A stretch of 64,000 nucleotides of DNA. Origin: Hemileia vastatrix (taxonomy: Eukaryota; Basidiomycota; Pucciniomycetes; Pucciniales; Zaghouaniaceae). The DNA lies in contig JASXTE010000016.1 of assembly GCA_030280995.1 (NCBI GenBank), positions 10,439,001 to 10,503,000 on the forward strand, read 5' to 3'. Made by a program: the position numbers and the translations under genes. The notes below the pieces were generated by a model that worked only from the letters and a program-made list of their open reading frames with translations, had not been told where the DNA came from and searched no databases. Positions 2,430 through 39,859 of the stretch are shown here, in pieces (position 1 is the stretch's first letter; each line of letters begins with the position of its first letter).

Positions 2430-4919
2430 TAGTGGTCTGTGTGTACATAGTGAATAAGACAGTTTGGGGCAACCTTAATCATCATACAACCATCCGGAGG
2501 TGATATCATTGTTCCTCACTCAGTTTTCACTGTTTTCTGGCCACAATTGGCTGTGTTTGTTGCAAGTGAGTTTTTCATTTAACTTAACTTTGGCAACTGT
2601 TTCTCTGTTATAGTCTTGCAAGCTATAGCAAGTATTATTGCTGTCTCTGGTGTGGATTTGCAGCCTACATCAAGTATCTTTGCTGTCTCTGGTGTGGACT
2701 TTGTTCTACATTTCAGTTGTTTGGTCTGGTAGTCTATCTGGTGACTACTTTCTTGGCTCATTAAGCAGTCAAGTGTGTTTAAAAGGGGTCTTTAGCAAAA
2801 CAGGAACCAACTTACTTTAGCAAGTAAATCTCACTCTATTTTTCTAAAGGGACAGGGGATTTTCTCTCTGGTTTTTCTCCAACTCCCTTGGTCAAGGCCT
2901 ATAGCTAGTACTATAGGATTGTCTACAACAATATTTAAGATTCATTTCTAAATATAATTATTATTATTAGAAAAAAATATCCTCAGTAATCAAATCATAT
3001 TTGGTTACTATAAGCTGTCCAACAGAAGAGAAAGAAGAGAAAGTAGAATTTAATATTTAATATTATTTAAATTAAAATATTGAAGCCATTAATTTGTCCC
3101 AATTAAATCTTCTACCCACTCAAATACTCTCATTAAAACGTTTTAAACCCTTACTTAGTTAACATAAAAGCTGACCAATTGGAGGGTTTTTTAAAATTTA
3201 TTGGTAGACAAAAATCTTGATAAAATGTCAAAACCAAAGGATTTGAAGGATTGATTAATTTTATGTTAGGCCATTTTATTGGGTCTTGAGGTCAAGGAAC
3301 TGTCATATTGTTGATAGAGGAGTAGAAAAAACAAAGAACACTATTTTTTTTTTCTTTTTTTTTCTTTTTAAAAAAGACAAATATATATATTTTATTTAAC
3401 TAAATAATGAGATAGGTACAACAAAAAGTCAAAATTTGGTTCTGGTGTGGTGCACATTTTGCAACATCACATGAAAAAAATTTGTGGAAGTGAACTACTC
3501 TTCTCAGGGTTTACCATTAAGAGTCCTCACTCAAGGTGTGAAAAAGGGGGGTGGTAATGGAAGAACAGGGAAAAGAGACTCGCCATGCTCAGTTTCTTTT
3601 AGGAAATATGTTAATGCTGAAGCCATGTTGGAATTTAAGGAGTGGTACAAAAAGACTATACATTTACATGAAAGTATGTAGTTACAACTATCACAGGGAA
3701 TGCAAATTGCATAGGATAAACTTAGTAAATAGTGACTAGCAAAGGTATAATTTTTACCTTAAACTAATATATGAATAAGTACAGTTATTGGTCAGATCTG
3801 TCTCAGAAGCTGTAGTTCTCACAAGCAGTAGCATGGTGTGAAGTGCTAAAGCTATAGGAAGAAGATTTTCAAAGAACCAAAAACACAGTGCTAAATGTCA
3901 AAAAAAAAAGTAACTTGATAAATAAAGGGAAAAAATATTACAAGGAGATGTAAGAATCTATGGTAAGGTGAGTTAGAATCATTATAAGTTGTGTAGAAGA
4001 ACTCTTACATTGGCCTTGCTTTAAGCAGAAACCAGAAGAGTTGGAGAATTCTAACAAATCACCTGTCTTCCTAGAAAAGTAATGTGGGATGTTCTAGTTT
4101 CAGAAAAGTTGGACTGATTTTTTACAGCAAGAAATTAAGAATCTGAGAAAAGTGTTATGCTTAAAAGAAAAAGCATAGAACTCTCAGTCTACTTATATGT
4201 AGAAGTGCTATTAAATCTCTATATATATTTCTTTACACTTTTATAAATGAAGTGTAAAAGATTAAGAAAAGTTCCTTCTAATATTAATCCTAAAATTAGA
4301 AAGTCATTGTAAAAGGTTAGATCCCCTGTATGATCCCCCTTTTTATTTAGAAATCCTCCTTTAAAAAGTCCCTTATCCTTCCACAGACAAACTGGTTGTT
4401 ACATAGCCAGATGTGCTGTAGTGTGCCATAGACAGATGTGACATGGGCATTCTGTAGTTTTCTTTAGCCAGAGGTGCTGTGGGCTTCCTGACCATTCCAA
4501 AATAATAACAAGTAAAAAAGTTAAATTGAAAAACACCAATATAACAACTAAATCCTAAAAATCTCAAAAATATCATCTAAACTTGAAAGAAAGATAAATA
4601 ACTAAGCTATCTACTAGTACTAAACACTGAAATCCCAGATCTAATCTCATTAAATAAAAAGCTAAACTGAAAATCCATAGATATAACAACCAAGAACACC
4701 CAAATTTGTGTCATAAAACAACATAATCACTAAAAAATCATCAAGGCATATAAAAAAGAGAATTTTCTCAGCTGTTTGGCAGTCCCATTCATCTAATCTG
4801 CACAAAAATCTTGTCACTCCAGATAGAAAACTAAATCCTTTAATAAATCAAATTACCAGTTCTTTTCAATATGTATTCTGCTCCTGCCTGCAGGTGTGCC
4901 ACAACACACATTTTATATT
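2430..4919. other. Intergenic stretch without recognisable genes
   Basis: AT-rich, with only short chance frames. Small features: a ~26 bp motif around TGCTGTCTCTGGTGTGGA repeated near 2640 and 2683, an AT microsatellite near 3380, and related short repeats around 4390-4490. The last three bases (4917-4919, ATT) are one copy of the target-site duplication of Harbinger element A. Confidence 0.6.
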
Positions 4920-4935
4920 AGGGGGTATCAATGTT
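4920..4935 (+). repeat. Left terminal inverted repeat of Harbinger A
   Basis: AGGGGGTATCAATGTT, identical to the complement of 12285-12300. The preceding ATT at 4917-4919 matches ATT at 12301-12303. Confidence 0.95.
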
Positions 4936-5003
4936 CAGGGATCGGCAATTAGGGATCAGGAATTTTTTTTCCCGGGATCAGACATTATTAATTGCGGAAG
5001 ATT

Positions 5004-5035
5004 CTTATCCATTAGCCCCAGGGCTAGTGGATAAG
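5004..5035. repeat. Subterminal palindrome of Harbinger A
   Basis: Two 15 bp arms (CTTATCCATTAGCCC and GGGCTAGTGGATAAG) separated by CA, with one mismatch. The same site in element B (13807-13838) is a perfect palindrome. It lies between the left TIR and the transposase, a likely binding site for transposase or its Myb-like partner, or part of the promoter. Confidence 0.85.
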
Positions 5036-5299
5036 AAATCCACGATAATGCATTATCCCGCCTCTTATACCCCAATTTCCATTCCTAATTCCTGATCCCA
5101 AACTCATCTCATCCATGATGGATTTTTAAGAAAGTCACATGACTTATAATTGCTGATGACATCCTTAAGTATTTCCTCACTCTATGCTACTTAATTTTGG
5201 TGGCGAACACTTAAGTTTTTTTTCTATCTACACACCCCAACTGCACATTTGGCGGTGAATTCCCACTTCCCTCATCACATAACCCTTCCACCAGCAACA

Positions 5300-6559
5300 A
5301 TGAAACACCTCTCTACTAGGAAGCTACTTCACTCAACAATGAATGCTATCACTTTTCCTTTAGTTCTTTACTATAAATCTGACTCTGATTTGGAAGATGC
5401 TTTAGCTTATATGTGTTTTCTTTCCAAAAAGCGTTACATCATCACCAGGGGGCCAAATCTTTATCATGATCCCCGATATGATCTGGCCTCCATTCTCAAC
5501 ATTCCTCATTTAAACTTCACACAACTTTTTAGAACTTCTCCCAATTCTTTCTTCAAACTTTATCAACTCATCTCCGATCATCCTATCTTCCATAACAATT
5601 CTCATAACAAACAGGGTAATCCTGCCATCCAACTTGCTGTTGCTCTATGTCGCTTTGGCTCAAATGGAAATGGTGCTGCCGTAAGACGTTTGGATAATCT
5701 CTTAAACATAGGATATGGTACCGTGATATTATACACCAAGCGCTGTATGATTGCTATCCTTTCCCTCAAGTCTCAAACTCTTGCTTGGCCAACTCCAGAA
5801 CAGCGACTTGAATCCTCTCAAGTAATGCAAGCTGAAGGTTTCCCTGGCTGTATAGGTTTTGTTGATGGCACAACCATCCCTTTGAGTCAAAAGCCTGCTC
5901 ATGATGGCAACCATTATTTTGATAGCAAAAAAAGGTTTCTTCAAAATCTTCTCCAAGTTCTCATCTTTCACAATCTAACTTTTTATCTTCTTTCTAGATA
6001 CTCTATTGCCATTCAACTTGTATGCGATGTCAATAAAAAATTTATTGCTTTTCACAGTGGCTTCCCTGGATCATGTCATGACTCTTCCATCTTCCAAAGA
6101 ATGAGGATTTCTCAATCCCCTGAATCATACTTTGACGAATCTCAGTACCTCCTTGCAGACTCAGCATATGCAAGTGGAAAGTACATTATACCTGCTTTCC
6201 GTGGTGCAACTTCAGAAAATGACCCCAAAACTGCCTTTAATTATCACCTTGCACAATCAAGAGTACAAATTGAACATGCTATAGGTATTTTAAAGGGACG
6301 ATTTTCTAGTCTTCGGGAGCTCAGTATCCAATTTCAAAAAAAATTGGAGATCAAAACTGCAAATCATTGGATCTTGACTTGCGTAATACTCCACAATATT
6401 CTAGATGATTTAAAGGATGAGTGGAATGATCTTTATGAAGAAGAGGATCCTGAACCACCACTGGCACTCCCCTCCCTTGATTCACAAATTATTCAATCAA
6501 CCGGCATACGCCCCATTATAATGCCAATTACTCTCCAACATTTCTCTTCACCCTTTTAA
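5300..6559 (+). CDS. PIF/Harbinger (HARBI1-like, DDE superfamily) transposase
   Basis: Nuclease that cuts and joins transposon ends in the nucleus. Predicted exons 5300-5934 and 5998-6559 give 398 residues. The 63 bp intron (GTTTCT..TTCTAG) is a multiple of three with no stop, so the unspliced frame also stays open; splicing restores the continuous family-like sequence KKRYSIAIQLVCD. The catalytic triad is visible: D189 in GFVDGTT, D266 in LLADSAY and E304 in QIEHAIGILKGRF. The start at 5300 (MKHLSTRK) is conserved in element B, and upstream there is no in-frame ATG. Size and motif order fit the family. It lies 364 bp inside the left TIR, opposite in orientation to the SANT/Myb-like gene, the usual two-gene layout of PIF/Harbinger. 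No stops or frameshifts were seen. Broken homologues lie at 14121 and 26453. Confidence 0.93.
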   Translation: MKHLSTRKLLHSTMNAITFPLVLYYKSDSDLEDALAYMCFLSKKRYIITRGPNLYHDPRYDLASILNIPHLNFTQLFRTSPNSFFKLYQLISDHPIFHNNSHNKQGNPAIQLAVALCRFGSNGNGAAVRRLDNLLNIGYGTVILYTKRCMIAILSLKSQTLAWPTPEQRLESSQVMQAEGFPGCIGFVDGTTIPLSQKPAHDGNHYFDSKKRFLQNLLQVLIFHNLTFYLLSRYSIAIQLVCDVNKKFIAFHSGFPGSCHDSSIFQRMRISQSPESYFDESQYLLADSAYASGKYIIPAFRGATSENDPKTAFNYHLAQSRVQIEHAIGILKGRFSSLRELSIQFQKKLEIKTANHWILTCVILHNILDDLKDEWNDLYEEEDPEPPLALPSLDSQIIQSTGIRPIIMPITLQHFSSPF

Positions 6560-6907
6560 TTTTTAATTTTTATGTTTTCATACTTTCCAAATGTCCTCTT
6601 TGTGTACTTTAATCACTTGGTTTTGTATTTTGGTTTGTTGCATATTCATTTTTTTTTTGAATTTACGGTGAATATCTTTTTTTTGGATGGCTCATTGGTT
6701 TTCTTTCACTTCCTCAACATGAAATCACATATTTTCTTATATCGCATATTTTGTCAGTGATTTTTTTTTTCATTCATCACTCATATCCTTTTCATCCTCT
6801 CCTCAAACATCCCTCAAATATTTTGGTTGCATTTATTTTCTCAACTCAACTCACCAGGTAGGTCATTTTTTTTCTTTTTTAATGGTTTTTTATTTGCTAA
6901 TCATGAT

Positions 6908-6938
<31 letters not shown>

Positions 6939-7139
6939 TGCTTTTTTTTTGCTTTTTTTTTGCTTTTTTTTTGCTTTTTTTTTGCTTTTTTTTTGCTTTT
7001 TTTTTGGTTTTTTTTTGGTTTTTTTGGTTTTTTTGTTTTTTTTGTAAGTGCTTCTTTTATTTTTGTTCTACGGTAAACTAATTTTTGTTTTGCTTTTTTC
7101 TCTTTTTTCTCTTTTTTTTTGTTTTTTTTTCTCTCCTTC
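6560..7139. repeat. T-rich region with 11 bp tandem repeat (6918-7016)
   Basis: Downstream of the transposase the sequence is very T-rich. From 6918 to about 7016 the unit GC plus nine T recurs about nine times with an 11 bp period, then decays to GG plus T runs. Open frames here (Lys-rich on minus, Phe-rich on plus) are by-products of the repeat. The 6580-6740 part is found inverted near the right end of element C (about 30440-30600), showing it belongs to the transposon family. Confidence 0.85.
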
Positions 7140-7800
7140 ACCTCTCTTTATCATCCTCAAGGCCCCCCTTTTTCCCTCTCTTTACCTGTCTCTGACCCCC
7201 TTTTTACCCCCTTTTTAGCTGCCTCAAATCCCCCCTTTCCCCCCTCTTTAGGTCCCTCATCACCCCCCTTCCCCTCTTTTTAGGTGCTTCAATACACCCC
7301 CTTCCCCTCTCTTTATGTCCCTCAAACCCCCCCCTTCACCTCTCTTTTGCCGCCTCAAACCCCCCCTTCACCTCTCTTTACCCACATCAAACCCCCCCCT
7401 TTCCCTCTCTTTAGGCGCCTCAAACACCCCCCCTTCCCCCCCTACCCAATCGTTACATCCTCCTCTACCCCCCCCCCCCCCCCTGTTTATTAACGAACGA
7501 TCGTTACAGATCATTTGTTAACAAGGAGGTGGGGGGGGGGGGGGGTAGAGAAAGTGGTAAAGGTTTGGGAGGGGGTAAGGTGATTGGAAGGGGGGGGGTT
7601 TGAGGTGCCTAAGGAGAGGAGAATGGGGGGGGGGGGTTTGAGGCGCCTAAGGAGAGGGGAATGGGGGGGTTTGAGGTGGCTAAAGAGGGGGGAATGGGGG
7701 GGGGATTTGAGGCAGCTAAAGAGGGGGGAAGGAGGGTGATGAGGGACCTAAAGAGGGGGGAAAGGGGGGTATTTCAGTGGGATTTTGAGGCAGGAAAGGA
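7140..7800. repeat. Large C-rich/G-rich inverted repeat built from a ~30 bp minisatellite
   Basis: 7140-7483 contains about ten degenerate units of the type CCTCAAAC(C)n followed by TTCCCCTCTCTTTA. 7529-7800 contains the complementary units (TAAAGAGGGG.., GTTTGAGG.GCC). The arms meet at a C16 run (7468-7483) and a G15 run (7531-7545) around a short palindromic centre with ACGATCGT at 7496-7503. The whole could form a long imperfect hairpin, and the G strand has quadruplex-forming runs. Only the left half has a counterpart in element B (about 15780-15970). Confidence 0.88.
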
Positions 7801-8445
7801 GAGCATTTGAGGGGGAAAAGGGGACATTTATGGGAGATAAAGATGGGTTACCAACTTTCAAATAAAGATACTAACAAATTTTTGTTTGTAATTTTGATTA
7901 TTTTTTTTATTTTTTTTGCAGTAATATAGAAAAAAAAAAAAATTCTTTCTAATAAGGAATGTCCCTCTTATTTACAAAACAAAAAAGGTTTATAATTTTA
8001 TTTTTATTTTTTCTATAATTAATTTTTGTGATTTTGATTTTATTTAAATAATTTTTTTATTTTTTATTTTGATTTTACTGATTTTTTTTTTCATGATCTT
8101 GTGAGAAGGTTTTTAATAACCAATCTTCAGGTTCACTTTTAATTTTTTTTTTAAATTTTTTTTTTGTGATTTAATTTTTACTGAAATTTTCTTTTTTGAA
8201 TGAATTTAATTATTAATTTTTTTAATAGGATTTTGCTTTAATTGTGTTTTTTAAAATAAAACCTCATGTTTTTTTTTATAAATTTTTTTTTTGGAAAAAG
8301 TTTTACTGATTTTTTGGTTTTTTTTTTTTCAATTTTATTTTTAAAATAAAAAAACAGCTTTTTTTATTATTAGGTAGGAATTTTTTTTAGAAAAAATTTG
8401 AGTTAAAATTTTATTGACAATTAATTTTTTTTTCAGATCAAAAAA
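7801..8445. other. T-rich leader of the Tet-like gene
   Basis: Very T-rich with no coding frame. It contains intron-like signals (CTAAC near 7874, a TTTTGCAG acceptor-like site near 7920), so a spliced 5' leader for the dioxygenase gene is possible. The corresponding part of element B (about 17160-17390) is also T-rich. Confidence 0.4.
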
Positions 8446-9695
8446 ATGTCTTCTTCTTATGATCCACCCCTTACTTCTCTCTTATCTTCATCTTTATCTT
8501 CTTTATCATCTTCATCTTTATCATCTCTATCATCTTCTTTGAAATCAACTCTATCATCTTCTTTGAAATCAACTTCCATACAATCATCTTCTAAATCATC
8601 AAAAAAAATTAAAGATAATCAGTCTCATCAGAAGAAAAGATATTTAAAAAAAAAGACTCTCTGTGAAAGTTATTTTTGTCATATCCCAAACATTTTTTTT
8701 TATAAAACTAAAGTAGATAAAAAAATTCAATATCCAAAAAAATTAGCAGAAGATATCAAATATCTAACAGAATTTGGAGATGATTGAGTTGTTGCAGTTA
8801 TCAGCAACGCTTTTAAGCCTCAATTCATTTTGGAAGTTCATTCATTCAATGGTGTAAAAGATGAAGCTTTTAATCAACTATCCGATCTTATCATAACTCT
8901 TTATCAAATGGCTTTGGTTCGGTTACCTATAAGGAATAAGAATTTGTTGGGTGGTATCATGATTGGTTTTGGTTGGAGACCTGGTTTTGTCAAAGGATAT
9001 TCTCTTGGTATGTCTAATAATTTTTGTTCCATTCTTAATATCATTTCACTTATTTCAATTATATAGGTATATATTCATTGCTCAATAATATCACTAAAGC
9101 ACAAAAAGATGAAGATTTTAGCTTATGGGACACTCTACCTTCCTTTAATTCTTTTCTTGCTCTTCGACTCAAAAAGCTCTGTAATAAGGCATTTGAAAAA
9201 AATCATGAACTTGCAACCAAAGTTGGAATACCGAATTGGTGTGACTCCAAATAAGAAGATATCAGCCACGAATATCTTTTATTTTCTAATGTTATTATCA
9301 CTCATTCTGGATTCCACAATAGGATTCATATCGATAGGAATGATGCCAATTTTCTTACTTTTGGAATATTCTCATATATCAATCTGATAACTGGCCACCC
9401 AATACCATCTCCAGCTAAAATCAAAGGACATGGTTTATATTTTCCAGACCACCGGTGCATCATTGATTTTGGTTTGGGAAATGGTATCATTGAAACTATT
9501 TGGAATTCTTCTAAGGATAATCATCAAACGACCAAAGCTCCTCCTGGTTTGGAATCCTGTCAAGATTTCACTCATTTCAGTTGCTCATTTCAAATCAGTA
9601 ATAATTTGATACAAAGAATCAATAAGGTAAAGAAAGAAGGTAAAGTTATTCGATTTAAAAAAACTTTATCTAGATCCAAAAAGTATGGGGATTAG
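8446..9695 (+). pseudogene. Tet/JBP-like 2OG-Fe(II) dioxygenase carried by Harbinger A (two in-frame stops)
   Basis: Members of this basidiomycete family resemble TET/JBP enzymes that oxidise 5-methylcytosine or thymine in DNA using Fe(II) and 2-oxoglutarate. Exons 8446-9007 and 9067-9695 join across a 59 bp GTATGT..ATAG intron. Order: Ser-rich N-terminus, basic linker, the family segment GIMIGFGWRPGFVKGYSLG before the intron, then GFHNRIHID with the HxD iron motif at 9327-9335, the segment LYFPDHRCIIDFG, and NHQTT with the distal His codon at 9522-9524. The expected 2OG-binding Arg is not obvious (THFSCSFQ where I would expect TR). Stops TGA at 8785 and TAA at 9252 break the frame; at the second site elements B and C have TGG. 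Family assignment rests on motif order recalled from Tet-like proteins; activity is unlikely unless the stops are read through or are sequence errors. Confidence 0.78.
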
Positions 9696-9775
9696 AGTTG
9701 TCATCGAAAATTTTATATTTTTTCATAAATTTTTAATAAATATTTTTTATATATCAATTTTCTCAAGTAATGTGA

Positions 9776-9975
9776 TGAGCCATCAACCTTGTGTTGTATA
9801 ACAGGTAATCATGATAACATTTATTTGTTTCATGGGGTTCCTCTTGCCTATACCTGTGGAAAGTCCCAAACTTTTGTTTCTCAACTTGGTCTGCATTTTG
9901 GCTTGAGGGATTGTCATTACTTTAAACTAGTGAAATTGATATATATTAGATATTTATTTAATAATTTATGTAATT
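9776..9975 (+). other. Block conserved downstream of the Tet-like gene in all three Harbinger copies
   Basis: About 190 bp containing TTTCATGGGG.TCC.CT.GCCTA and ACCTGTGGAAAGTCCCAAAC is also present at about 19978-20165 (element B) and inverted at about 27292-27510 (element C). A 67-residue frame over it is open in A and C but shifted in B. It may be a 3' untranslated region, a last exon of the dioxygenase, or another small gene. Confidence 0.55.
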
Positions 9976-9989
9976 ATATTAAATTTAGA

Positions 9990-10425
9990 TGACTTCCACC
10001 CCTTACTTCAATAAAATTCAGGGGGGGGGGTATTGCCAAATTTTCAAATCTGACATGTGAAATTGATGACTTAGAAAAATTTTGGTGATATCCACCCCTT
10101 GCTTCAATAAAATGCAGGGGAGAGTATTGCCAATTTTTTAAAACAGATATAGAATTTTTTTGACTTGTAAATATTTTTGTGATACCCGTCCCTTACTTCA
10201 ATAAAATCCATGGGGGGTTGTGCCAAAATTTCTTATAAGACTTGTGAAATTCTTGACATGTAAGAATTTTTGGGATACCGGTAAAATGCAGGGGGTAGTA
10301 AAGCCAAATTTTCATATAAAACTTTCAAGATTCATGACATGAAAGAATTTTTGTGATACCCACCCCTTACTTCAAAAAAATCCAGGGGTGGGGGATTGTC
10401 AAATTTTCAAAGAAGACTTGAAAAT
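9990..10425. repeat. Tandem array of ~90 bp hairpin-bearing units
   Basis: Five degenerate units each contain CACCCCTTACTTCAATAAAA followed by a short spacer and AGGGG, so CCCCT and AGGGG can pair, then a GCCAAATTTTC-type tail. The array lies between the 3' ends of the convergent Tet-like and Myb-like genes, and AATAAA within each unit resembles a polyadenylation signal. Two or more units remain in element B (about 20170-20340) and, inverted, in element C (about 27120-27295). Confidence 0.85.
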
Positions 10426-10545
10426 TTTATTTAAAAAAAGAATATTTAACATTAAAATACGATATTTCAAGAAATACAGAAAATAATTGTAAAATTTATG
10501 TACAAATAAATATGAACACATGAAGTGTGAAAGAAATAAAGGAAA

Positions 10546-11949
10546 CTAGTAAACAAAAAATTTCATTAAATGTTCTATTTCTTCAACAGATTTGTTTGCT
10601 TTAATGCATTCAATCAAAAAATCTTTCTTTTTTGAACTTTCTTGGAGATCATGCTTATACTTCATCTGTTCCATTAAGTTTTGATGCTTGAGTGTTTTTT
10701 CCTTATTTTTGGATTTTTCAATACTAAGAGTTAACTCAAACTTCTTCTCCTCCAAATCTTGGGCCCTACCATCCTTCTGTAAAGAGAGCTCAAACTTCTT
10801 CTCCTCCAAATCTTGGATCCAATCATCCTTCGGTAAGGAGAGCTCATACTTCGTCTCTTCCAAATCTTGTACTCTGTCATCCCTCCTTAAAGAGAGCTCG
10901 TATTTCTTCTTTTCAAAGCTCAGAGTCTCTTTAGCAATTTCCACTTGTTCTAGAGTGAGAATAAAAATTAACATAAAGTAGAAGAAAAGCAGAGTAAAGT
11001 AATAAGAGGTATGATATCACTTACCAGCATCACGTTTCTCTAAAAACTGTTCCATCGAAGAAAAAGGTGTTTGTGATGAAGTTTCACTTTTTCGTCTTCT
11101 TTGGGAGAGGAAATTTAGACTAGTTGAAGCACTTCTCTTTTTGTTCAACGTAGCATTTTCCTCCTCATCATTGTCACTAGCTTCAGACTCAGTTGATTGA
11201 GGATCCTGGGTTTGTTCATCAGCCTTTTAAGAAATAAGAAAAAGATAAGTGAATAAAAAATAGAATTGATAAGATAAAAGAAAAAAGAAACAGACCTGAG
11301 TTAGATTTGGTTGGGTTAAATCACCTATAGGATCTACAGAAAAGCTATTTAGATATGTCTCATTCAAATGAGGGGAGGCTTGAGTGGAGGAAGAGGATGG
11401 GAAAAGATTTGCTTCGACATCATGTTTGGAGATAGGATCTTCTCCATCCAACATGTTTACAGGATTAACATCAGCTCGCTCTCCAAAAATTGCATCAATC
11501 TCTTTAAAGTAAGGACAGAAAGAATCAAGTTTATTGTCTATGGATTTTATGCCCTTAGTTATATCATTGTCGGTAATCCCAAAACCAGTGGAAGATGAAA
11601 GAGCCTTTGCCTTCTTGTATTTTGCTCGGTAATTCTTGAAGCGTTCAGACATCTGTTTAGGCAAAAGATCAATCCTTCCCTTGGTCTTATTGCGTAATTC
11701 ATTTGCCATTAGAAGATAGCCATTAACTTTTGATGCGGGGGGCCGTCCTACTTTAGTGGCATACTCAGTACCAAAACAAGAATCATAGTTAGATTTGGTT
11801 TTCAGCCAGTTGTTAAGAATGAGATGTTCATCATTTTTTAATTGAACAATCTTTGATTTCTCAGCTGAGCAGGGGAAAGAGGAAGTAGTGGGAATTGAAG
11901 AACAACTGGGTGATGGCTGCCTTTGAGAAGATCTAGGATGACGAGGCAT
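10546..11949 (-). CDS. SANT/Myb-like DNA-binding partner protein of Harbinger A
   Basis: In PIF/Harbinger elements a second, Myb/SANT-like protein binds DNA and helps carry the transposase to the nucleus and to the transposon ends. Exons 11949-11296, 11223-11025 and 10949-10546 join across two introns (72 and 75 bp, good GT..AG sites) into 418 residues without stops. Residues about 37-150 hold the predicted trihelix/SANT-like region (LKNDEHLILNNWLKTKSNYD, then GYLLMANELRNKTKGRI, then FKNYRAKYKKAKAL). The middle is acidic and contains QRRRKSE, a possible nuclear signal. Exon 3 begins a predicted coiled coil with three to four 18-residue repeats of the type KKFELSLQKDGRAQDLEE. I chose the ATG at 11949 because a preceding ATG only adds a hydrophobic stretch absent from element B. 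A decayed homologue lies at 20620-21988. Confidence 0.8.
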
Positions 11950-12284
11950 GTTATTATAAATGAAGATGAAAAGGAGCAGAAACAAGCAGATGAGATAGCG
12001 AGATGAAAAGGAGAAGAACCAAATAGATGAAATGGGGAGGAATTCTGAGCGGACAGAATGAACAGGATGGGATGAGAATGGAAGTGCCCAGCAAGGTAGA
12101 AGGCTGGGATATCCAGAAAGTTGTCCAAGATGTGGTTATGGAAAATTGAGTAAAAAAATGTTGGATAAGAGGTGAACATTGACACGTAAAGTGTCTAATA
12201 ACCCAATTATTAGCAAAAATAATTGCGGAAGATAACTGGGGTATGCAGATTATTTTCCGCAATTAATTTAATTGCGGATTGGTC
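11950..12284. promoter_or_regulatory. Right subterminal region of Harbinger A with palindrome
   Basis: Non-coding upstream region of the Myb-like gene. At 12256-12278 TCCGCAATTA and TAATTGCGGA form a perfect palindrome with an ATT loop. The half-site TAATTGCGGA also occurs near 12223 and near the left end (about 4988-4997). Element C has a related palindrome next to its left TIR. Probably transposase or Myb-like binding sites; this is inference. Confidence 0.65.
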
Positions 12285-12300
12285 AACATTGATACCCCCT
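12285..12300 (-). repeat. Right terminal inverted repeat of Harbinger A
   Basis: AACATTGATACCCCCT, the exact complement of the left TIR, followed by the ATT target-site copy at 12301-12303. Confidence 0.95.
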
Positions 12301-12382
12301 ATTAAGTACAGGAGGAAGTACTTTCAGGCTCAGCTCAAGTAAAGAGACATGAATAGCTTGATTATTCAGCTTTCTAGATAAT

Positions 12383-13723: not shown

Positions 13724-13806
13724 AGGGGTATCAATGTAAAGGGATTGGAAATTAGGGATGAAGACTTTTTTTTACTGGGATCAGAACTTATTAATTGGGG
13801 AAGATT

Positions 13807-13838
13807 CTTATCCACTAGCCCCAGGGCTAGTGGATAAG
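13807..13838. repeat. Perfect subterminal palindrome of Harbinger B
   Basis: 15 bp arms CTTATCCACTAGCCC and GGGCTAGTGGATAAG separated by CA, at the same distance from the TIR as the near-perfect copy in element A. Confidence 0.9.
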
Positions 13839-14120
13839 GATTGCACAATAATGCATTATCCCACCTCTTATACCCCAATTTCCATTCCTAATTCCTGATC
13901 CCAAACTCATCACATTCATGATTGATTTGTAAGAAGGTCACATGAAATACAATTGGGGATTTCATCCTTATGTCTCTTGTCACTCTATGCTACTTAATTT
14001 TGGTGGTTAACACATAAAATTTTTTTATATCTACACACCCCACCATCTCATCTGGTGGAAAATTCCCACTTCTCACTCATCACCTAATCCTTCAACCAAC
14101 AAAATTCTCTACCAAAAATA

Positions 14121-15374
14121 ATGAAGAACCTCTCTACTAGAAAGAGACTTCACACAGCTATGAATGCTGTCACTTTAACTTTAGCTTCTGACTCTGATTC
14201 TGACTCTGGTTTGGAAGGAACTTTAGCTTATATGTCTTTTCTTTCCATAAAGTGTTAAATCATACCAAGGGGGCCAAATATTTATCATGATCCCAGATAT
14301 GATCTTGCCTCAATTCTTGAAATCCCTCATTTAAACTTCTTCTGATTCTATTTTGAAACTTTCTCAACTCATCTCTGATCATCCTATATTTCATAATAAT
14401 TCCTATAAAAAAAGCATAATCCTTCCTTTCAACTTGCTGTCTCACTATGTTGCTTTGGTTCAAATGGAAATGGTGCTGCTGTAAGATGTTTAGATAATCT
14501 TCTCAACATAGGGTATGGTACCATCACTTAATACACCAATTGCTTTATGATTGATATCCTTTCTCTCAAGTCTCAATCATTTGCTTGGCCAACTCCACAA
14601 CAGCAACTTGAATCCTCTCAAGTAATTCAAGCAGAAGGTTTCCCTGGCTGTGTAGGTTTTGTTGATGTTAAAACTATACCATCGAGCCAAAAGCCTTCTC
14701 ATGATGGTAAATATTATTTTGATTGCAAAAAAAAGGTTTCTTCAAAATTTTCTGCAATTTCTCTTCATTAATGTAATAAATTTTTATCTTCTCTCTAAAT
14801 ACTCTATTACCATTCAACTTGTGTGCAATTTCAATAAAATTTTTATTGCTTTTCATGGTGGCTTTTCTGGCTCTTTTCATGACTCTTTCTTCTTCCAAAA
14901 AATAATAATTTCTCAAAATCCTGACTCATACTTTGATGAATCTCAGTACCTCCTTGCAGACTCAGAATATGCAAGTGGAAAGTAAATTATACCTGCTTTC
15001 AAAGGCGCAGATTTTGAAAATGACCCAAAATAACTTTTAATTATCATCTTGAACAATCAAGAGTACTAATTGAACATGTTATTGGTATATTAGGGAAGAA
15101 TTTCTAGTCTCCAGGAACTCAGAATCCAATTTTAAAAAAAAATTTGGAAATCAAAACTGCAAATTATTGGATAGTGAATTTTGTTATACTACACAATATC
15201 CTAACTGATTTAAAGGATGAGTGGAATGATCTTTATGAAGTAGAGGATCCCAAACCTGCACCAGCTCTCCCCTCCCTTGAATCACAAAACGTCCTTACCA
15301 CCAACATACACTATCTCATTATTCCAATCACCTTCCAACATTTTGAAACACAATCTTTTAATTTTTTTTTTTAA
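14121..15374 (+). pseudogene. Harbinger transposase pseudogene (element B)
   Basis: Starts MKNLSTRK, as in element A, but has a stop after about 45 codons, several frameshifts and small deletions. The first catalytic region reads GFVDVKTI (the Asp is kept, the following Gly is lost), the second LLADSEYAS, and the third region has frameshifts around IEHVIG. The 63 bp intron of the A copy is present but its acceptor TAG has become TAA and a stop lies inside. Not functional. Confidence 0.88.
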
Positions 15375-17389
15375 ACTCTGCAAATTTTCAACTTGTCTGC
15401 TATATTCACTTGGTTTGGTGTTTTTTATTTTGCATATTCACTTTTATTTTGAATTTACATTAAATGTCTTTTTTTTGGATGTCTCTTTTTTTCATACACC
15501 AGCTCAACATGAAATTGCACTTTTTCTGCAATTGCATAATTTTTCACTGTTTTTTTATTCAACCCTCATATCCTTTTACTCCTTTCCTCAAAAATCCCTC
15601 AAACAATTTGGTCTCATTTATTTTCTCTTCTCATCTCTCCAGGTACATAATTTTATTCAATTTTTTATAATTGTTTGTTTGCTAATTATGAAAAAAAAAA
15701 TTCTGTTTTTTTTTCTGCAATTTTTATTTTTTTAAGTGGTTCTTTTTTTAGTTTTGAAGGTCAAATTGAATCTTTTTTTTTTCTTTCCCTCCCTATTTTC
15801 TCTCTTTTTTTCCTCTCCATCCTACTCTTTATCCTCCTTGGCCTAGTCATTTTCCCCACATTCACCTCTCCTTGGCATGGACATATCCCCCCCTCAACCC
15901 CCCCTACACTCACTTCAACCCTCCCTGGTCCTCCTCAAATACCCCTCCATATCCCCCTACCCCCCTTCTCATTGTTTGTTTAAAAACAATTGACTTTTTT
16001 TCCATGAGACTAACTCAATAGGGTCAAAAAACATCTAAAGAAGACACAGCCATTGCCATATATTAATTTGATGGTAATGCTGTTAATATTTATCTTGTTA
16101 ATGAATAACTCTTCTTAGAGTGAGTGCAATCTTCAAACTAACTTATAGTACCTGAGTAGTTGAAATTGATGGCATATACTAATATGAACCACAAGTAATA
16201 TCAAATCTAAGGATTGGAAATTCTGTTGTATAAAAATTATTGGATCTTTGAATAATACTAAATGCTTAAACTTTTTTGACTGGTGATTCATGAAAAATCT
16301 TTTTAAGTATCTCCATCACCTCCACCACCATTGTGATCTAATCCCCACTTAACACCCTTCTTGGCTGCATCAAAGAAAGCTCCAATTGAAAAAGGATCTG
16401 GAACTTTTTTGTCCTGCTCAGATTGAAAGGGTCTCTGATGAAAAAGAAAAATAAGCATCAGTATTATAATAACTTGTAACAAGTTTTTTATACATCCACA
16501 AGATGAGAAATTTTACACACCTGTCTCTATTGTCTAACAGCTCAGTACCTTCAAACTATTTCACTTTAACACCTAGTTGAAATCAATCATTGCACAAAAT
16601 TTTTCTGATTCACTCTTCAGTTCCTCCCCTTTACTTCTCATAATCTGCAGTTTTACCACCTTTTTTGTATATTGCTGCAGCTACTGAACTTCCAATCAAT
16701 GATGGCTTTTTATAAAGATTTTAGAAATTGTCATCTCCAAAGCTTTTTGAATAGATTTCTTGATTGAAAAGTCAGTAATCAATCATGGCATCATTTCTTA
16801 ATGTAGGCTTAGCCAATTCTAATGCAATCTTCTTGCTAATATCATGACTCTTAATTCAAGAAAGCACTTGCACCCATTTTTTTTACCCATATTTGCAATT
16901 TGCATTTCTCAATCTTTTTCATTTCTTTGTTCTTGACATATTTCATCTCTTTCTTGGGATGCCTCTTTGTCTTCCTCTTCATGTACATTGGAGAGGTTTG
17001 AGGGGGGTTTTTTGAGGTGTTTTTGTGAGGGTTTGGGGGGTTTTGGAGGTAGTTTGGTGTGGGATTCAGAGATGTCTTACCAGGGAAGAAAGGGGACCAA
17101 TGAGAGAGAAATTGACAGAAAATCTCTACATGGACTGATGAGGGAGCCCTTAAAAAATTGACAGAAAAGTTTTACAACTTCTTTTAACATTAATCTTTTT
17201 TTATATTTTTTTCTGTGCAGAATTAACCAAAAGAATTCCTCAAATTCAAGTAAAGTAATAATTTTTTTTATTAATTATTTGCAGCAAATTTTTAAGTTCT
17301 TTTAATTTAAATTTTGTGAATTTTTATTTATTTTTAAAACAAAATTTTGACCTTTTTTTAAACATTAAAAATTTTTTTTAGAAAAAAAA
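15375..17389. other. Internal non-coding region of Harbinger B
   Basis: T-rich and pyrimidine-rich sequence matching the A element downstream of its transposase, including the left half of the C-rich minisatellite (about 15780-15970). The complementary G-rich half seen in A was not found. 16000-17160 has no counterpart I could recognise in A and no convincing gene. Confidence 0.55.
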
Positions 17390-19905
17390 ATGTCTGTTTC
17401 TTCTGATTAAAGCCTTACACCTCTATTTTCACCTTTATCTTCTTTATCTTCTTCATCAAAATCTATTTCATTTCTATTTTCAAAAAAAAAAATTCAGAAA
17501 AAAAATTATGTTCCTTCTGATTTAAGCCTTGCATGTCTATCTTCATCTTTTTCTTCTTTATCATCTTATTCAATTTCTACTTCATTTCAATCTTTTTCAA
17601 AACCTTCAAAAATAAAAAATGATGATTGATCTTATGAAAATAAAAGATTTTTTTTTTAAAAATACACTTGAATATTTTATTTGGCCATATATCACCCATC
17701 TTTTCAGCCTAAGTATCCCCAGGACTGAGTAATTTTTATGTTTAGAATAAGATAACCCTAATTGCATTAAGCTTATAAGTTAAAATTATGTTTATAATAC
17801 TTATATATATGGTTATTATGCTTATATATATGGTTATTATGCTTATATATATGGTTATTATGCTTATATATATAATTATTACACTATCATAGTTTTAATA
17901 GCTTATTCATAGCCCTATAATACTTATTTAGGTGCTAATGTAGTCATAATATACTTATCTTAAGTGATATTGGGTAATTATAGACATACATAAGTTTATA
18001 TGTATGCATAAACCTCATATTCAGTGAAATATGTAGTTATTTTATGTATATATAGGTCTATATGTGGGTTTAAACCTTTAAATAGCCTATAAGCTTTATT
18101 TTCCTGCTTATTTTAGGGCATATGGATGTATTCAATTGACTCACCATTCCTAGATAAGCATATACACCTTTTTCAGGGGCATATATCCTGTTTGGGCAAC
18201 TTAATCTGCTTCCTTTAATGAATTTTCACAGATTTATGGGTTGGGATATGATTACTGGGTTAATATGGTTTCTTGGGGATGTAATTGGGGGCTTGGAAAG
18301 TTGATTTGGTTCCTTTATATGCTTTGAGTTTCATCTTATTCTCTTTGGATGAGTTATTTTACCTGTTTCCTTTTGGTATCCACTTTTATCTGTTTTCTCT
18401 ATTTATGGTATGGGTGTATGATATCATTAATTTTAATTGAGGGTCCTAACTGGAGTTCTGGGTGTTGAGACTTTTTGAAGTGGATGCCATGGGGAGGTTG
18501 TTAACCCTCACAGCTCTGTAATAGCCTTTAATAGCATTGAAATCAGTTGCATTGAAGGTTTTTGCACTCCAGTGGATTTTGGTATAAGGGAGAATTTGAC
18601 AGGTTATTATACATCAATTACCTACTACAACTCAAATAAACATAATAAAACAATTATTAACATATATAAATATATTTTAAAGCCTTTAAAAATTAATATT
18701 ATCTTTATATTAGCAATAAATATATTTTATTAGCCTATTTTCCGCCAATAGTCTGCACCAATCCAAACATTGTGAGTTAAAATTGAGAATAACTACTTTA
18801 TTATTCTTCCCCTGAGTTTTAATCTATAATTAATTTAATATTAATTAATGGGACCATTAATGTTTAATATTAAATCATACTTAAATACTAGCATACACTG
18901 ACACATCAAGTATTATGAAACTAAAGTCAACAAAAAAATAAATATCCCAAGAATTCACTTGAAGATATTAAATATATAACCAAATTAGGAGGCAATGAAA
19001 TTAATTCTGTAATAAGTAATACTTTTAACCCTCAATTTATTTAAGAAAATCATTTATTTGATGGAGTAAAAGATGAATCCTATATTCAACTATCCAATTT
19101 CATTACAACACTATATCAAATGGCTTTGCTTTGCCTACCAATAAGGAATTAGAATTTTTTTTGGTGGTATCATGATTGGTTTTGGATGGATACCAGGCTT
19201 TATTAAATTTTATTCTCTTGTTAAGTCTAATAATTTGTATTTTTTCACTCTTAGTATAGTTCACTCCTTTTAATTCTATAGGCATCTATTCTTTGCTCAA
19301 AAATTTATCTAAAGTGGAAATAGATAATGATTTTTGAAAATGTGACTCTTTACCTTCCTTCCTTTATTCTCTTGCTCTTTGCCTTTAAAAACCCTGAAAT
19401 AAAGCCTTCCAAAAAATCACAAAATTGAAACTAAAGTAGGAATACCATATTGGTGTGATTCTAAATGGGAAGAAATCAGAAATGAATATTTATTGTTTTC
19501 AAATGTTATAATAACTTATTAAGGATTTCATAACAAGATACATACCAATTCAAATGATTACAATTATCTTACTTTGGGGATCTTCTCTTATATAAATCCT
19601 ATTACTGAACACCCTGTTCCTTCACCCGATAAAATCAAACAACATGGGTTATACTTCCCAGATCATAGGTGTATAATTGATTTTGGATTAGGAAATGGAA
19701 GTATCTAATCTTTTTAGAACTCTTCTCACAATAATCACCAGAAAAAAAATCCTCCAGGTTTGGAATCTTGTCACAACTTTAATCATTTTTGCTGCTCCTT
19801 CCAATTAAGTCAAAAGCTAATCCAAAGAATTAACAAGGTAAAAAAAGAAAAAGTAATAAATTTAATAAAACTTTAGTTAGATCAAAAAAGTATGGTGATT
19901 TGTAA
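17390..19905 (+). pseudogene. Tet/JBP-like dioxygenase pseudogene (element B), split by a solo LTR
   Basis: Homologous to 8446-9695: Ser-rich start at 17390, then LTR 17702-18903, then the family segments GGIMIGFGWIPGF (about 19160), GFHNKIHTN (19526-19549), LYFPDHRCIIDFG and the tail RSKKYGD near 19880. Multiple stops and frameshifts. The iron motif HxD reads H-T-N here, which would abolish iron binding. TGG is kept where the A copy has its second stop. Confidence 0.75.
17702..18903 (+). mobile_element. Solo LTR (~1.2 kb) inside Harbinger B
   Basis: About 1.2 kb related to the LTR at 33055-34233, with the same start (TCAGCC, then a CCCAGGACTGAGTA-type stretch) and the same end (CACTGACA). 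Flanking CATCT (17697-17701) and CATCA (18904-18908) look like a slightly mutated 5 bp target duplication. The first G of the TG end has mutated. No coding sequence. It contains a 21 bp unit, TATATATATGGTTATTATGCT-like, repeated about four times at 17801-17877. Confidence 0.8.
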
Positions 19906-20373
19906 ATTCATTGAATCTTTTTGATTATTTCATAAAATTTTAATTAATAAATCTGAAATTTCAGTTTGCTAAACTAAAGTAATGAGCCAACAACTTTGTA
20001 TTGTATAAACAGTAATTATGACAAAATTAAATTGTTCCATGGGGACTCCTCTAGCCTACACCTGTGAAAAGTCCCAAACTTATTTTCTAGACTTGATCTG
20101 CATTTTAGCTTGAGGAATTTTCATTACTTTAAAACTAGTAAGTGAGATTTATCTTATTTATTAATTTACGGAATTATATTAAATTTTGGTGATTTTCACC
20201 ACTTACTTCAATAAAATGCAACGGAGGGTACTGCCAAATTTTCAAATCTGACATGGAAAATTGATAATTTAGAAAAATTTAATGATACCCACCCTTTGCT
20301 TCAATAAAATGCAGGGGAGGTTTTTTCCAAATTTATCAAACAGATATAGAATTTTGTTGATGTAGCTATATTT

Positions 20374-20545
20374 AGAAATCCAAATTGGTGGTGATGTGAT
20401 AAAATTATTTTGGTGAAAAAAATCAGGTAAAAAGTGCTGATTTGAGGTCATAACTGACACCCATTTTTGAAATAAGTGATTTTTTTGCAATATTTAAGTG
20501 CTGATTTGCTTTGAAATCCACACTTGAGTTAGAAGTTACACCCAC
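20374..20545. mobile_element. Fragment of element-C-type Harbinger end inside element B
   Basis: The stretch AAAAGTGCTGATTTGAGGTC, the following ACTGACACCC and GATTTGCTTTGAAATCCACA match the right end of element C (about 30655-30690 and 30895-30990) but not element A. It shows that the two Harbinger subfamilies have recombined or been nested. The terminal GGGGG is not preserved. Confidence 0.65.
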
Positions 20546-20619
20546 TAATGATGGATTGAGTAATGAAAAGAATGAAATTATGAACAAATGAAATATGAAT
20601 GGAATACAAAAAATCATAA

Positions 20620-21988
20620 AACATTTTCATTAAGCATTCAATTTCCTCAAAAGATTTATTAGCTTTAGTGCATTATATCAAGAAAAAATTCTTTTTTGAA
20701 CCATATTCAAGTTGATACTTCAGTTTCATCTGCTTCAATAGGAAATTGTACTTGAGAGACTTCTCCTCTTTCTTTATCTCAAATTTCTTCTCTTCCAAGT
20801 CATGTGCCCTCAAATCTCTTTTTAAGTAAAGCTCAAATTTCTTCTCCTCCAAGTCTTGTACCCTCTCTTCCCCCTGCAAAGAGAGGTTAAATTTCTTCTC
20901 CTTCAAGTCTTGTGCCATATCATCTCTGTGCAAAGAGAGCTTGTATTTTAGCTTTTGAGAGTGAAGAGTATCTCTTTCAACTTCACTTTTACCTAGAGTG
21001 AAAAGGAATATTAAAAAAAGAAAAGAAAATCTCACTAAATTCTTAAGAGGTGTGCCATCACTTAATAAATTCAAATTTCTCCAAAAAATCATCAATCGAA
21101 GAAATAGGGGTTTAGGAAAAACTATCTCTGTTTTGTTTTCTTTGAATGCTTAAATTCAGAGTAGTTGATGGTCTTCACTTTTTTTGGTGGTAACATTTTC
21201 CTCTTCATCATTGATGTTAGCTTCAGACTTACTTACTTGAGGATCCTGGTTTTTTTCATTAGCCTTTTTAGAAATAAAAAATAGAGATATAAATAAAAAA
21301 ATAAAACAAATATAAAGGAAATAAAATCTCACTGGATTTTGATTTGTTTGTTTTATATTTCCATAAGGATCTATTACAAAGATATCTTGATTGGTGAAAG
21401 TCAAATGAGGAGAGGCTTGAGTAGAAGAGGAAATAAAAATATTTCTCTCAACATCATGTTTGTAGATATCATCTTCTCCATCCAACATGTTTTCAGGATT
21501 AACATCAGCTTGCCATCCATATATGGAAGCCATTTCTATATTGAAAGGACATAAAGAATCAAGTTTATTGTATATAGATTTGATACCCTTACTGATATCA
21601 AGGAAAGTAATACCAGAACCAGTGGAAGATGAAAGAGTCTTAGCCTTCTTGTATTTGGATTGATAGTTCTTGAAGCATTGATACATCTGTTTAGGCAAAA
21701 GATAAATCCTTCCCTTTGTCTTATTTTGTAATTCATTGGCCATTAAAAGATATCCAATGACTTCTTATGCAGGGGGCCATCTTGATTTAGTTGCATTATC
21801 AGTACCAAAACAAAAATTATAATTAGTTTTAGTTTTAAGCCAGTTGATAAGTATTAGGAGATCATCTTTCTTTAGTTGAGTGGTCTTTGATTTCTTAGCT
21901 AAGGGAGGGGGGGGAAGGAGGGGGAAGTGGGATTTGAAGAAAAACAGGGGGTAGGCTGCCTTAGAGAAGATCTATGACAACAAGGCAT
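20620..21988 (-). pseudogene. SANT/Myb-like partner pseudogene (element B)
   Basis: Homologous to 10546-11949: start MPCCHRSS at 21988, SANT-like segment MANELQNKTKGRI, acidic middle, and the 18-residue coil repeats (KKFNLSLQGEERVQDLEE and similar) at 20750-20960. Frameshifts and stops occur in the N-terminal part and the exon borders are damaged. Confidence 0.78.
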
Positions 21989-22295
21989 TCTAAGATATTT
22001 GAAGATGAAAAAGAGAAGAAACAAACAAATGAGATGGGGAGAGGTTCTGAATAGATAGAATGAATAGACAGGATGGGAGTTTGCAACAAGGTAGGGAGGC
22101 TGGCACATCCAGAAAGTTGTCCAAGATGTGGTTGTGAGAAAGTAAAAATAAAAATGACAGATATGAGGTGAAAATTGACAAGTAAAGAATCTAATAAACT
22201 AATTATTAGCAAAAAAAATTCAGAAGTTAATTAGGGTATAATAATTTTTATCCACAATTAATTAAATTGCAGATCCCTTAACATTGATAGCCCCT

Positions 22296-26158: not shown

Positions 26159-26199
26159 AGGGGGTGTCAGTTCTGGCAAATCCGCACTTAAATTTGACC

Positions 26200-26227
26200 A
26201 AATCCGCACTTAAATAAGTGCGGATTT
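26200..26227. repeat. Subterminal palindrome of Harbinger C
   Basis: AAATCCGCACTTA and TAAGTGCGGATTT form perfect 13 bp arms around AA. An imperfect equivalent lies near the right end (about 30980-31007). It resembles the TCCGCAATTA/TAATTGCGGA palindrome of element A. Confidence 0.85.
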
Positions 26228-26452
26228 CCAAAACACACTAGCCCCAATAATGGTGGATTTCAAAATGAAATATGTCACTTATTTCACTCAAATTCACACT
26301 TTCTCAACCAAAAGTGCTGATTTAACCATCAATTCCCATTTCAATGATTTGTCAGCATCATCCCATTCATACGCAGCACTCCACAGCATAACACTTCATA
26401 ACTCAAAACATCGTACATCACTTACATCTTCATATCATATCATATAAGAGTT

Positions 26453-27082
26453 ATGCCTTCCTCACTTTCAAATCGTGATAAATTACATAAAGCAATGACT
26501 TTCATGGCTCTTGAACTGCTCTTGGACTCTGATTCTGATTCTGATTCTGATCTAGAAGAAGATTTTGTCTTTTTATCAAAAATGGCCACAAAACGTTACC
26601 TTCTTCCCAGAAAGCCTCAAGTACTTCATACCCCCAAGTACACCATCCAAACACTTCTTAAACTATCTACACCCAGTTTTAGACAGCTGTTCAGGACTTC
26701 TCAGGATTTTTTCCTTAAATTTCTTGAGCTTATTCAGGATCATCCCATATTTCACAATAATTCTCAAAAAGAACAACGACATCTTTCAATTCAATTGGCC
26801 ATCACACTATGTCGTTTGGGTTCAAATGGTAACAGAGCCGCTTTGAAACGTTTAGAAAATGTCTTTTATTTAGGGTATGGTTCAGTTAACACTTATACCA
26901 AACGATGTATCACTGCCATCAACTCCTTGGAATCTCAACTTCTCACCGGGCCAACAAAAGAAGAGCGACTTAAATCATCTCAGGTTATGCAAGCGGAGGG
27001 CTTCCCAGGATGTATTGGTTTTGTTGATGGTACTTCTATTCCTTTGAGCCAGAAACCTGCTCAAGGTGGAAACAATTATTTT
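26453..27082 (+). pseudogene. Harbinger transposase, N-terminal half only (element C)
   Basis: Open from ATG 26453 through GFVDGTSIPLSQKPAQGGNNYF, which includes the first catalytic Asp; after this the sequence switches to an inverted piece of the element's internal array and the frame soon ends. The second Asp and the Glu are absent. The preserved part has no stops, suggesting a fairly recent rearrangement. It is diverged from A in amino acids, in line with its different TIR. Confidence 0.88.
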
Positions 27083-28179
27083 CACATTCTTGTCAAAAAT
27101 TTTCACCAAAATATTTACAAGTCAAAAAAATTCTATATCTGTTTTAAAAAATTGGCAATACTCTCCCCTGCATTTTATTGAAGCAAGGGGTGGATATCAC
27201 CAAAATTTTTCTAAGTCATCAATATCACATGTCAGATTTGAAAATTTGGCAATACCCCCCCCCTGCATTTTATTGAAGTAAGTGGTGGAAGTCATCTAAA
27301 TTTAATATAATTACATAAATTATTAAATAAATATCTAATATATATCAATTTCCCTAGTTTAAAGTAATGACAATCCCTCAAGCCAAAATGCAGATCAAAT
27401 CTAGAAACAAAAGTTTGGGACTTTCCACAGGTATAGGCTAGGGGAACCCCATGAAACAAATAAATTTTATCATGATTACCATTTATACAACACAAGGTCG
27501 TGGGCCCATTACTTTAGTTGAGGAAATTTATACATAAAAAATATTTATTAAAAATTTATGAAAAAATATAAAATTTTCGATGACAACTCTAATCCCCATA
27601 CTTTTTGGATCTAAATAAAAATTTTTTTAAATCGATTAACTTTACCTTCTTTCATTACCTTATTGACTCTTTGAATCAACTTATGACTGATTTGAAATGA
27701 GCAACCAAAATGTGTTAAATCTTGACAGGATTCCAAACCAGGAGGAGCTTTGGTCGTTTGATGATTATCCTTAGAAGAATTCCAAATAGTTTTGATGATA
27801 CCATTTCCCAAGCCAAAATCAATGATGCACTGGTGGTCTGGAAAATATAAACCATGTCCTTTGATTTTAGCTGGAGATGGTATTGGTTGGCCAGTAATTG
27901 GTTTGATATATGAGAATATACCAAAAGTAAGAAAATTGGTGTCCTTGGTATTGGTGTGAATTTTATTGTGAAATCCAGAATGAGTGATAATAACGTTAGA
28001 AAATAAAAGATATTATCTTCCCATTCGGAGTCACACCAATTCGGTATTCCAACTTTGGTTGCAAGTTCATGATTTTTTTCAAATGCTTTATTACAGTGCT
28101 TTTGGAGTCAAAGAACAAGAAAAGAGTTAAAGGAAGGTAGAGTGTCCCATAAGCAAAAATCTTCATCTTTTTGATCTTT

Positions 28180-29318: not shown

Positions 29319-29433
29319 GCTTTAGTGATATTCTTGAGCAACGAATACATGCCTATATAATTGAAATGCCAAGATAATAATCATATAAGAGTTTCAGAAT
29401 CCTTATCCTCTAAATATGCAATATAAAAATGTG

Positions 29434-29771
29434 AAATAAGACAAGTGAAATTTGGAAAAAAGGCTCAACTTCAAAGGTCAAAATCTCAGCAACCACTGAA
29501 CCTAATTCAAACCTGTTTGAGGGAAATGAAAGATATGCTTTAGTAGAATCTTCAGTTAAAGGACATGTGATTTAAATAAACCTAACCCTAATTTGTTACA
29601 TAAAAAATGAAATAAAAGTTTAAATTGGGAAAAAAAGGCTCAACTTTAACGGTCAATATCTCAGCAACCACTGAATCAAATTCAAATCTGTTTGTGGGAA
29701 ATGAAAGGTAGCCTTCAGGAGAATATTCAGTAAAAAGAAAATTAGATTTGAATAAACCTAACCCTAATTCC
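29434..29771. repeat. Two tandem copies of a 175 bp unit ending in CCTAACCCTAAT
   Basis: GGCTCAACTT begins at 29462 and again at 29637; the units share TCTCAGCAACCACTGAA, GGGAAATGAAAG and AATAAACCTAACCCTAAT with scattered mismatches. There is no counterpart in element A. The TAACCCTAA motif resembles fungal telomere repeats but occurs once per unit only. Confidence 0.8.
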
Positions 29772-37280: not shown

Positions 37281-37308
37281 TTCAAGAGGGCAAACTACCA
37301 GTGAAGAA

Positions 37309-39507: not shown

Positions 39508-39859
39508 GTTCCCTAGTGGATCTCCAGCTCTGTCTCTAGTGCCACATTAGTAAAACAATTACTAATCCATTAGTAAACTAAATACACCGCTTTTAACAAC
39601 AACAGTGCCTAAAAAAACCCTATACTTACTAATACTAGTATTAACTTGTTTCACTCATATTCCACATGTGCGCTTATGACTGTACCTTTGCATTGTTTCA
39701 GCGCTACTTCCCATGTTGAGACCTTTTAGCACTGATCCTTGACTCTTCAACTCTTAGGTAGTTTTGTGATTGAGTCCCCATCCTCCTTGCTTAATTACTA
39801 AGTCCATAGTTCTGAAAATTCACTTAACTAGTTAGCCTCTGCAACTTACTTTACCTGTT

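Follow-up and report, generated by a model that had tools for sequence, protein, structure and literature searches.

Genes for TET dioxygenases have been described in seven DNA-transposon lineages of rusts (Kojima 2025, PMC12730594), among them fifteen TET-carrying Harbinger families, termed PHISTA, from five Puccinia species and Austropuccinia. In the main text of that paper, PHISTA elements are described as having TA duplications and a third protein that lacks Myb/SANT, and escape from methylation is argued for, a function stated there not to be experimentally validated. The same main text makes no mention of Hemileia, and a literature search that took in, of the Hemileia genome papers, only part of PMC10652848 yielded no report of a TET-carrying Harbinger element in this genus. 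Here we analyze a 64,000-nucleotide stretch of the coffee rust Hemileia vastatrix (the window; contig JASXTE010000016.1, positions 10,439,001 to 10,503,000, forward strand), in which positions 4920-12300 are occupied by a PIF/Harbinger-type DNA transposon with a transposase gene, a third gene and, between them, a gene for a protein that is Tet-like by profile and motifs. The reading that we consider probable, though well short of assured, is that this enzyme protects elements of its family (F1; a related second family is termed F2) from methylation in trans, and that free-riding copies often lose the gene; the activity of the enzyme is a prediction.

The element, its ends, and its genes

The element is bounded by perfect 16-bp terminal inverted repeats (TIRs), AGGGGGTATCAATGTT at 4920-4935 on the plus strand and its counterpart at 12285-12300 on the minus strand, with the triplet ATT directly outside them at 4917-4919 and 12301-12303. 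In the genome searched (747.6 Mb in 791 contigs), the F1 TIR has 8225 exact matches (4116 and 4109 on the two strands), while the reversed control has none. Flanks were compared for 14 TIR pairs, comprising the window element, ten complete elements, and three short ones. All 28 flanking triplets are ATT or AAT, and the 3 bp outside the TIR are the same on both sides in 12 of the 14 pairs, the exceptions being the pair L064/L065 (which bounds complete element L076) and the pair L070/L071 (a short element). TA adjoins the GGGGG/CCCCC runs at the element ends, and agreement over 3 bp fits the flanks better: since the middle base is free to differ and yet agrees in 12 of 14 pairs (p 0.013 versus a W base that is A or T with equal odds), a 3-bp duplication is favored over TA alone. 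Both the TIRs and the 3-bp target duplication of the initial annotation were thus borne out. The duplicated triplet is AWT, beside a TIR whose first base is A; the usual PIF/Harbinger target triplet is TWA.

Besides short TIRs and a 3-bp target duplication, the element has the transposase of the PIF/Harbinger superfamily. An open frame on the plus strand (5195-6559; first ATG at about 5300, with a possible in-frame intron at about 5935-5997 suggested by the sequence) matches DDE_Tnp_4 (PF13359) with an E value of 4.6e-26, as expected from the DDE transposase annotated initially, and its named relatives among the 120 listed of 144 are called DDE Tnp4 or HARBI1. Between this frame and the dioxygenase gene, an imperfect inverted repeat with 72-base arms (89% alike) lies at 7230-7769 amid runs of C and G.

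The dioxygenase gene is on the plus strand and appears to consist of exon 1 (8446-9007, with the motif GWRPG..KG and limits deduced from the sequence), a putative GT...AG intron (9008-9066), and exon 2 (9067-9695, with HxD, YFPDHRCIIDFG, and NHQTT). Two pieces of exon 2 from the window copy match the Tet-like profile PF20515 with E values of 4e-8 and 5.1e-17, whereas the later piece of exon 1 reaches only 0.24 and the N-terminal piece gave no match in the profile search. Thus the Tet-like gene proposed initially is recovered in its domain, but the copy at hand is broken, with in-frame stops at 8785-8787 in exon 1 and 9252-9254 in exon 2. Long open frames extend over each dioxygenase exon in two other loci (L041 and L048), and in the F2 locus L056 the dioxygenase is a single open frame of 393 amino acids that matches PF20515 over residues 117-342 (E 3e-32). 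A 2-oxoglutarate/Fe(II) oxygenase match, whose absence would have spoken against the annotation, is therefore present.

HxD and NHQTT occur in those F1 and F2 sequences that span these motifs; in one sampled copy (L051) the D of HxD is changed. In known TET enzymes an arginine binds 2-oxoglutarate. In the Hemileia protein, the iron-site residues HxD and a distal H could be located, the latter read from the end of the profile, and the 2-oxoglutarate-binding arginine was not placed. The roles of HxD and the later H residues are taken from the main text of PMC12730594. By profile and motifs, then, the protein is a predicted Tet-like 2-oxoglutarate/Fe(II) dioxygenase.

The third gene lies on the minus strand (10546-11949; about three exons, with approximate limits deduced from the sequence) and encodes a possible Myb/SANT-like N-terminal part followed by a C-terminal part with many charged repeats. 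Its matches to Myb_DNA-bind_4 (PF13837) are all below the cutoff (E 0.018 in the window; 0.0021 and 0.018 at two F2 loci), its AlphaFold model is poor (mean predicted local distance difference test score [pLDDT] 40.4), and the one PDB match by sequence (E 1.2) was not credited. The minus-strand gene that was first labeled SANT/Myb-like therefore exists, but with a subthreshold match to that domain; the protein probably represents a divergent form of the Myb/SANT-like DNA-binding partner usual in Harbinger elements.

A second family and constraint on the dioxygenase

Four further PF20515 loci (L056-L059) were hand-picked, mainly for long open frames, from 150 listed of 10,849 candidates. A related transposase is present in three of them and the third gene in all four. 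L056 is bounded by a different TIR, AGGGGGTGTCAGTTCTGGCAAATC, with AAT on both flanks; L057 has this TIR too, with unequal flanks (ATG versus ACT). The order and orientation of the genes in L056 are those of F1 (the window element, L054, and L075), with the dioxygenase again between the other two. Compared with F1, the L056 transposase is 56% identical, the third gene 51% in its conserved part and 32% in its C-terminal part, and the dioxygenase 75-83% in its domain pieces and 46% in its N-terminal tail.

Nonsynonymous (dN) and synonymous (dS) divergence between the families was estimated by simple counting on few sequences. For dioxygenase exon 2, four comparisons gave a dN of 0.12-0.13 and a dN/dS of 0.08-0.11; for exon 1, dN was 0.17 and dN/dS 0.22. 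The corresponding values were 0.36 and 0.12 for the N-terminal transposase and 0.40 and 0.20 for the third gene, while the C-terminal transposase had a dN of 0.28 with dS saturated and no computable ratio. Between-family dN is thus lowest in the dioxygenase (0.12-0.17, versus 0.28-0.40 in the transposase and third gene), and exon 2 is the most constrained part. As judged from these comparisons, the dioxygenase gene was either present in the common ancestor of F1 and F2 or exchanged between both long ago, and selection has maintained it.

The common layout and the low dioxygenase dN also argue for an inherited gene of the element and not for a chance insertion, by which the dioxygenase gene or another transposon would have landed in one Harbinger copy and then been copied along. 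Foreign DNA inside elements does occur in the window (13724-22295), but two families that share 56% transposase identity have the gene in one place and one orientation, and this, together with so little protein change since, makes such an accident hardly credible, and we reject it. The view of the initial annotation that these PIF/Harbinger elements regularly include a Tet/JBP-like gene as their third is accordingly supported: two families share an identical layout and show low protein change.

Mutation of the copies and loss of the dioxygenase

Copies of the element bear a strong mutational signature. C-to-T changes were counted over an internal 2.1-kb stretch of the element in 33 of 34 rows, the more diverged L052 being dropped; since loci L021-L050 (L021 is the window copy) were chosen as best matches to the dioxygenase piece of the window, the counts lean to well-kept copies. 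CpG sites change at a rate of 0.087 per site per copy and other C at 0.0032, an about 28-fold difference (Fisher p 4e-120), and the rate is highest at TCG (0.116; p 3e-6 versus other NCG). The ratio of observed to expected CpG is 0.48 in the 2.1-kb stretch and 0.18 across the whole window. TCG hypermutation in repeats is described for Pucciniomycotina such as Puccinia in the main text of PMC12730594, which cites earlier work. From the C-to-T excess at CpG, most marked at TCG, the copies are probably methylated or otherwise CpG-targeted.

Under the reading that we favor, the dioxygenase would oxidize 5-methylcytosine on the DNA of its own family, acting in trans; this oxidation would lower both silencing and methylation-linked mutation and so help transposition, and copies without the gene could still spread on enzyme made by other copies. 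The anti-silencing role suggested in the initial annotation fits the CpG and TCG decay of the copies, but the activity of the enzyme that it presupposes is itself predicted.

How far the gene has been retained was assessed in ten complete F1 elements, hand-picked from 100 listed TIR places in the first 10.3 Mb of contig C2 and all fetched; each has an exact plus-strand TIR followed, 5-8 kb on, by an exact minus-strand TIR. Third-gene and transposase sequence is present in all ten (in L055, about half of the transposase). Exon 2 alone remains in six (L051, L052, L055, L074, L077, and L078), and the dioxygenase is absent from two (L053 and L076). Of the 30 loci chosen as best dioxygenase matches, 5 have exon 1, and genome-wide tags allowing at most two mismatches number 1099 for exon 1, 3578 for exon 2, and 3901 for the third gene. 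In the exon-2-only copies L023, L025, L051, L052, and L055, DNA comparison shows about 800-870 bases of different sequence in place of the equivalent of about 6951-9052 of the window. An alternative first exon was sought by eye at four exon-2-only loci (L025, L050, L051, and L052), where no GWRPG-like upstream frame was seen, and none of the six exon-2-only complete copies has an exon-1 match better than E 0.2; we therefore reject such an exon. L053 and L076 are 98% alike across the 1.5 kb that stands in for the dioxygenase. Within this stretch of L053 (3422-4946), 365 bases match DNA within the L057 F2 element at 98% identity, a likeness that suggests exchange between the families; they were not found in L056.

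Several results weigh against a trans-acting protective enzyme. No protein relatives of the dioxygenase at an E value of 1e-3 were found among 1978 and 7402 candidates scored from 5.8 billion sequences, the PDB holds no match by sequence at E 10, and the AlphaFold model is poor (mean pLDDT 33.6), which leaves the Pfam profile and the motifs as the basis for the proposed fold and active site. By dN/dS alone, exon 1 is no more constrained than the N-terminal transposase or the third gene. Both dioxygenase exons are present in only two of the ten complete copies (L054 and L075), whose exon-2 matches contain one stop each, and within F1 the one pair compared, a full copy and an exon-2-only copy, has a dN/dS of 0.39, a sign of relaxed constraint; constraint seems to be looser once exon 1 is lost. 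With 8 of 10 complete copies lacking the full gene, elements can evidently do without the enzyme in cis, and the gene may be failing now. We also compared copies with both exons (7) with the rest (28) across the region like 9052-11194 of the window, using L021-L050, L051, L054, L055, L075, and L078 and leaving out L052, L074, and L077. The CpG excess over other C is 14-fold in the former and 32-fold in the latter (p 0.005), but the former show no reduction in the absolute CpG rate (0.093 versus 0.082). Here, too, L021-L050 tilt the sample toward well-kept copies. As the absolute rate is not lower, and as age and sampling are confounded, we make no claim of protection in cis. The expectation that would have told against the annotation, namely, copies mostly without the gene, is partly realized: the full gene is missing from 8 of 10 complete copies, though exon 2 at least survives in 8 of 10.

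These losses are what would be seen if the dioxygenase were a passenger without present function, captured long ago, once selected and now being lost, with recent spread driven by the transposase and third gene alone. Exon 1 is lacking in six and the whole gene in two of the ten complete copies, all of which retain the third gene and some or all of the transposase, exon-1 tags amount to 31% of exon-2 tags, and the relaxed ratio of the full and exon-2-only pair points the same way. However, exon 2 has a dN/dS of about 0.1 across the separation of F1 and F2, the exon-1 tags persist in four figures, L041 and L048 have their open frames, and a trans-acting enzyme predicts the identical pattern of loss. 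We regard a passenger gene as unlikely, if the most serious of the competing explanations. A lasting mark is less likely still: the enzyme would set hydroxymethylcytosine, or another modified cytosine or thymine, at the element ends or promoter, guiding the transposase or altering expression, and would not remove methylation. Such a role has some backing in the main text of PMC12730594, where another activity, e.g., cytosine or thymine modification, is said not to be excludable for rust-type enzymes, but no sequence feature pointing to the ends as a target was found, and CpG decay was counted in the internal 2.1-kb stretch.

The idea that rust transposons use TET against methylation rests, in the main text of PMC12730594, on gene content. 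One abundant Hemileia family offers the parts of a test, with copies with and without the gene in one genome, measurable constraint on the enzyme, and a mutation signature of silencing. Mapping methylation in coffee rust could do much to decide on the anti-methylation role, with no genetic change needed.

Two other elements in the window had initially been listed as carrying the same gene. One, at 13724-22295 on the plus strand, is a decayed F1 relative with transposase, dioxygenase, and third-gene remnants separated by other DNA and with ATT on both sides, and it stands. The other, at 26159-31026 on the plus strand with AAT on both sides, is not a simple copy but a chimera, in which F2 TIRs and the start of a cut-off transposase frame are followed by an inverted F1-like block about 92% identical to F1 dioxygenase exon 2 and adjoining DNA. 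This chimera is evidence of exchange between F1 and F2.

The window also contains a diverged tandem array of a 26-base unit (34478-34971). At 37281-52084, a 7401-base unit that includes an aspartyl protease frame of the retroviral type is present twice in tandem with only two bases differing, either a recent duplication of a long terminal repeat (LTR) element or an assembly artifact. A reverse transcriptase frame at 61673-62530 (RVT_1, E 4.2e-9) probably belongs to an LTR element.

Relation to known transposon systems

A transposase tree was built from 45 relatives, hand-chosen from the 120 listed, and three Hemileia rows, of which F2 is represented by its C-terminal part only (43% of columns). 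The Hemileia transposases are sister to a Puccinia group (support 100/98) and then to Austropuccinia (99/89). The transposases of the three genera likely form a common rust lineage, as far as this tree goes.

The Kyakuja/Dileera/Zisupton (KDZ) elements of basidiomycetes, reportedly treated by Iyer and others in 2014, are likewise DNA transposons with a TET/JBP gene, but their transposase differs. With canonical PIF/Harbinger elements and Nuwa, as presented in the main text of PMC12730594, the Hemileia element shares the DDE_Tnp_4 transposase, the 3-bp duplication, and a possible Myb/SANT partner; those elements encode two proteins, to which the Hemileia element adds the dioxygenase. The resemblance to PHISTA, as described in the same text, extends to a Harbinger-type DDE transposase, a Tet/JBP-type dioxygenase, and one further protein inside the TIRs, to a rust host, and to TA beside the terminal runs of G or C. 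Unlike the TA described for PHISTA, the Hemileia duplication reads as 3 bp, AWT, in 12 of 14 pairs. For the third protein, a weak Myb/SANT-like match is seen here, whereas Kojima reports none for PHISTA, and most complete Hemileia copies sampled have lost the dioxygenase in part.

Because duplication length and third protein read differently, and because of the uncertain link of the Puccinia proteins to PHISTA, we class the Hemileia element as a TET-carrying PIF/Harbinger transposon and not as PHISTA proper. It is tempting, though decidedly tentative, to go further and suppose a TET-carrying Harbinger lineage apart from PHISTA, marked by a 3-bp duplication, a Myb/SANT-like partner, and a trans-acting counter-defense shed by most members, in which intact copies would support thousands of free-riders amid methylation-linked TCG mutation. 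TET-carrying Harbinger elements are already known in other rusts from the main text of PMC12730594, and Hemileia provides a new example, not a new kind; what is new here is the host, the two families, the evidence of selection and mutation, and the gene-less derivatives.

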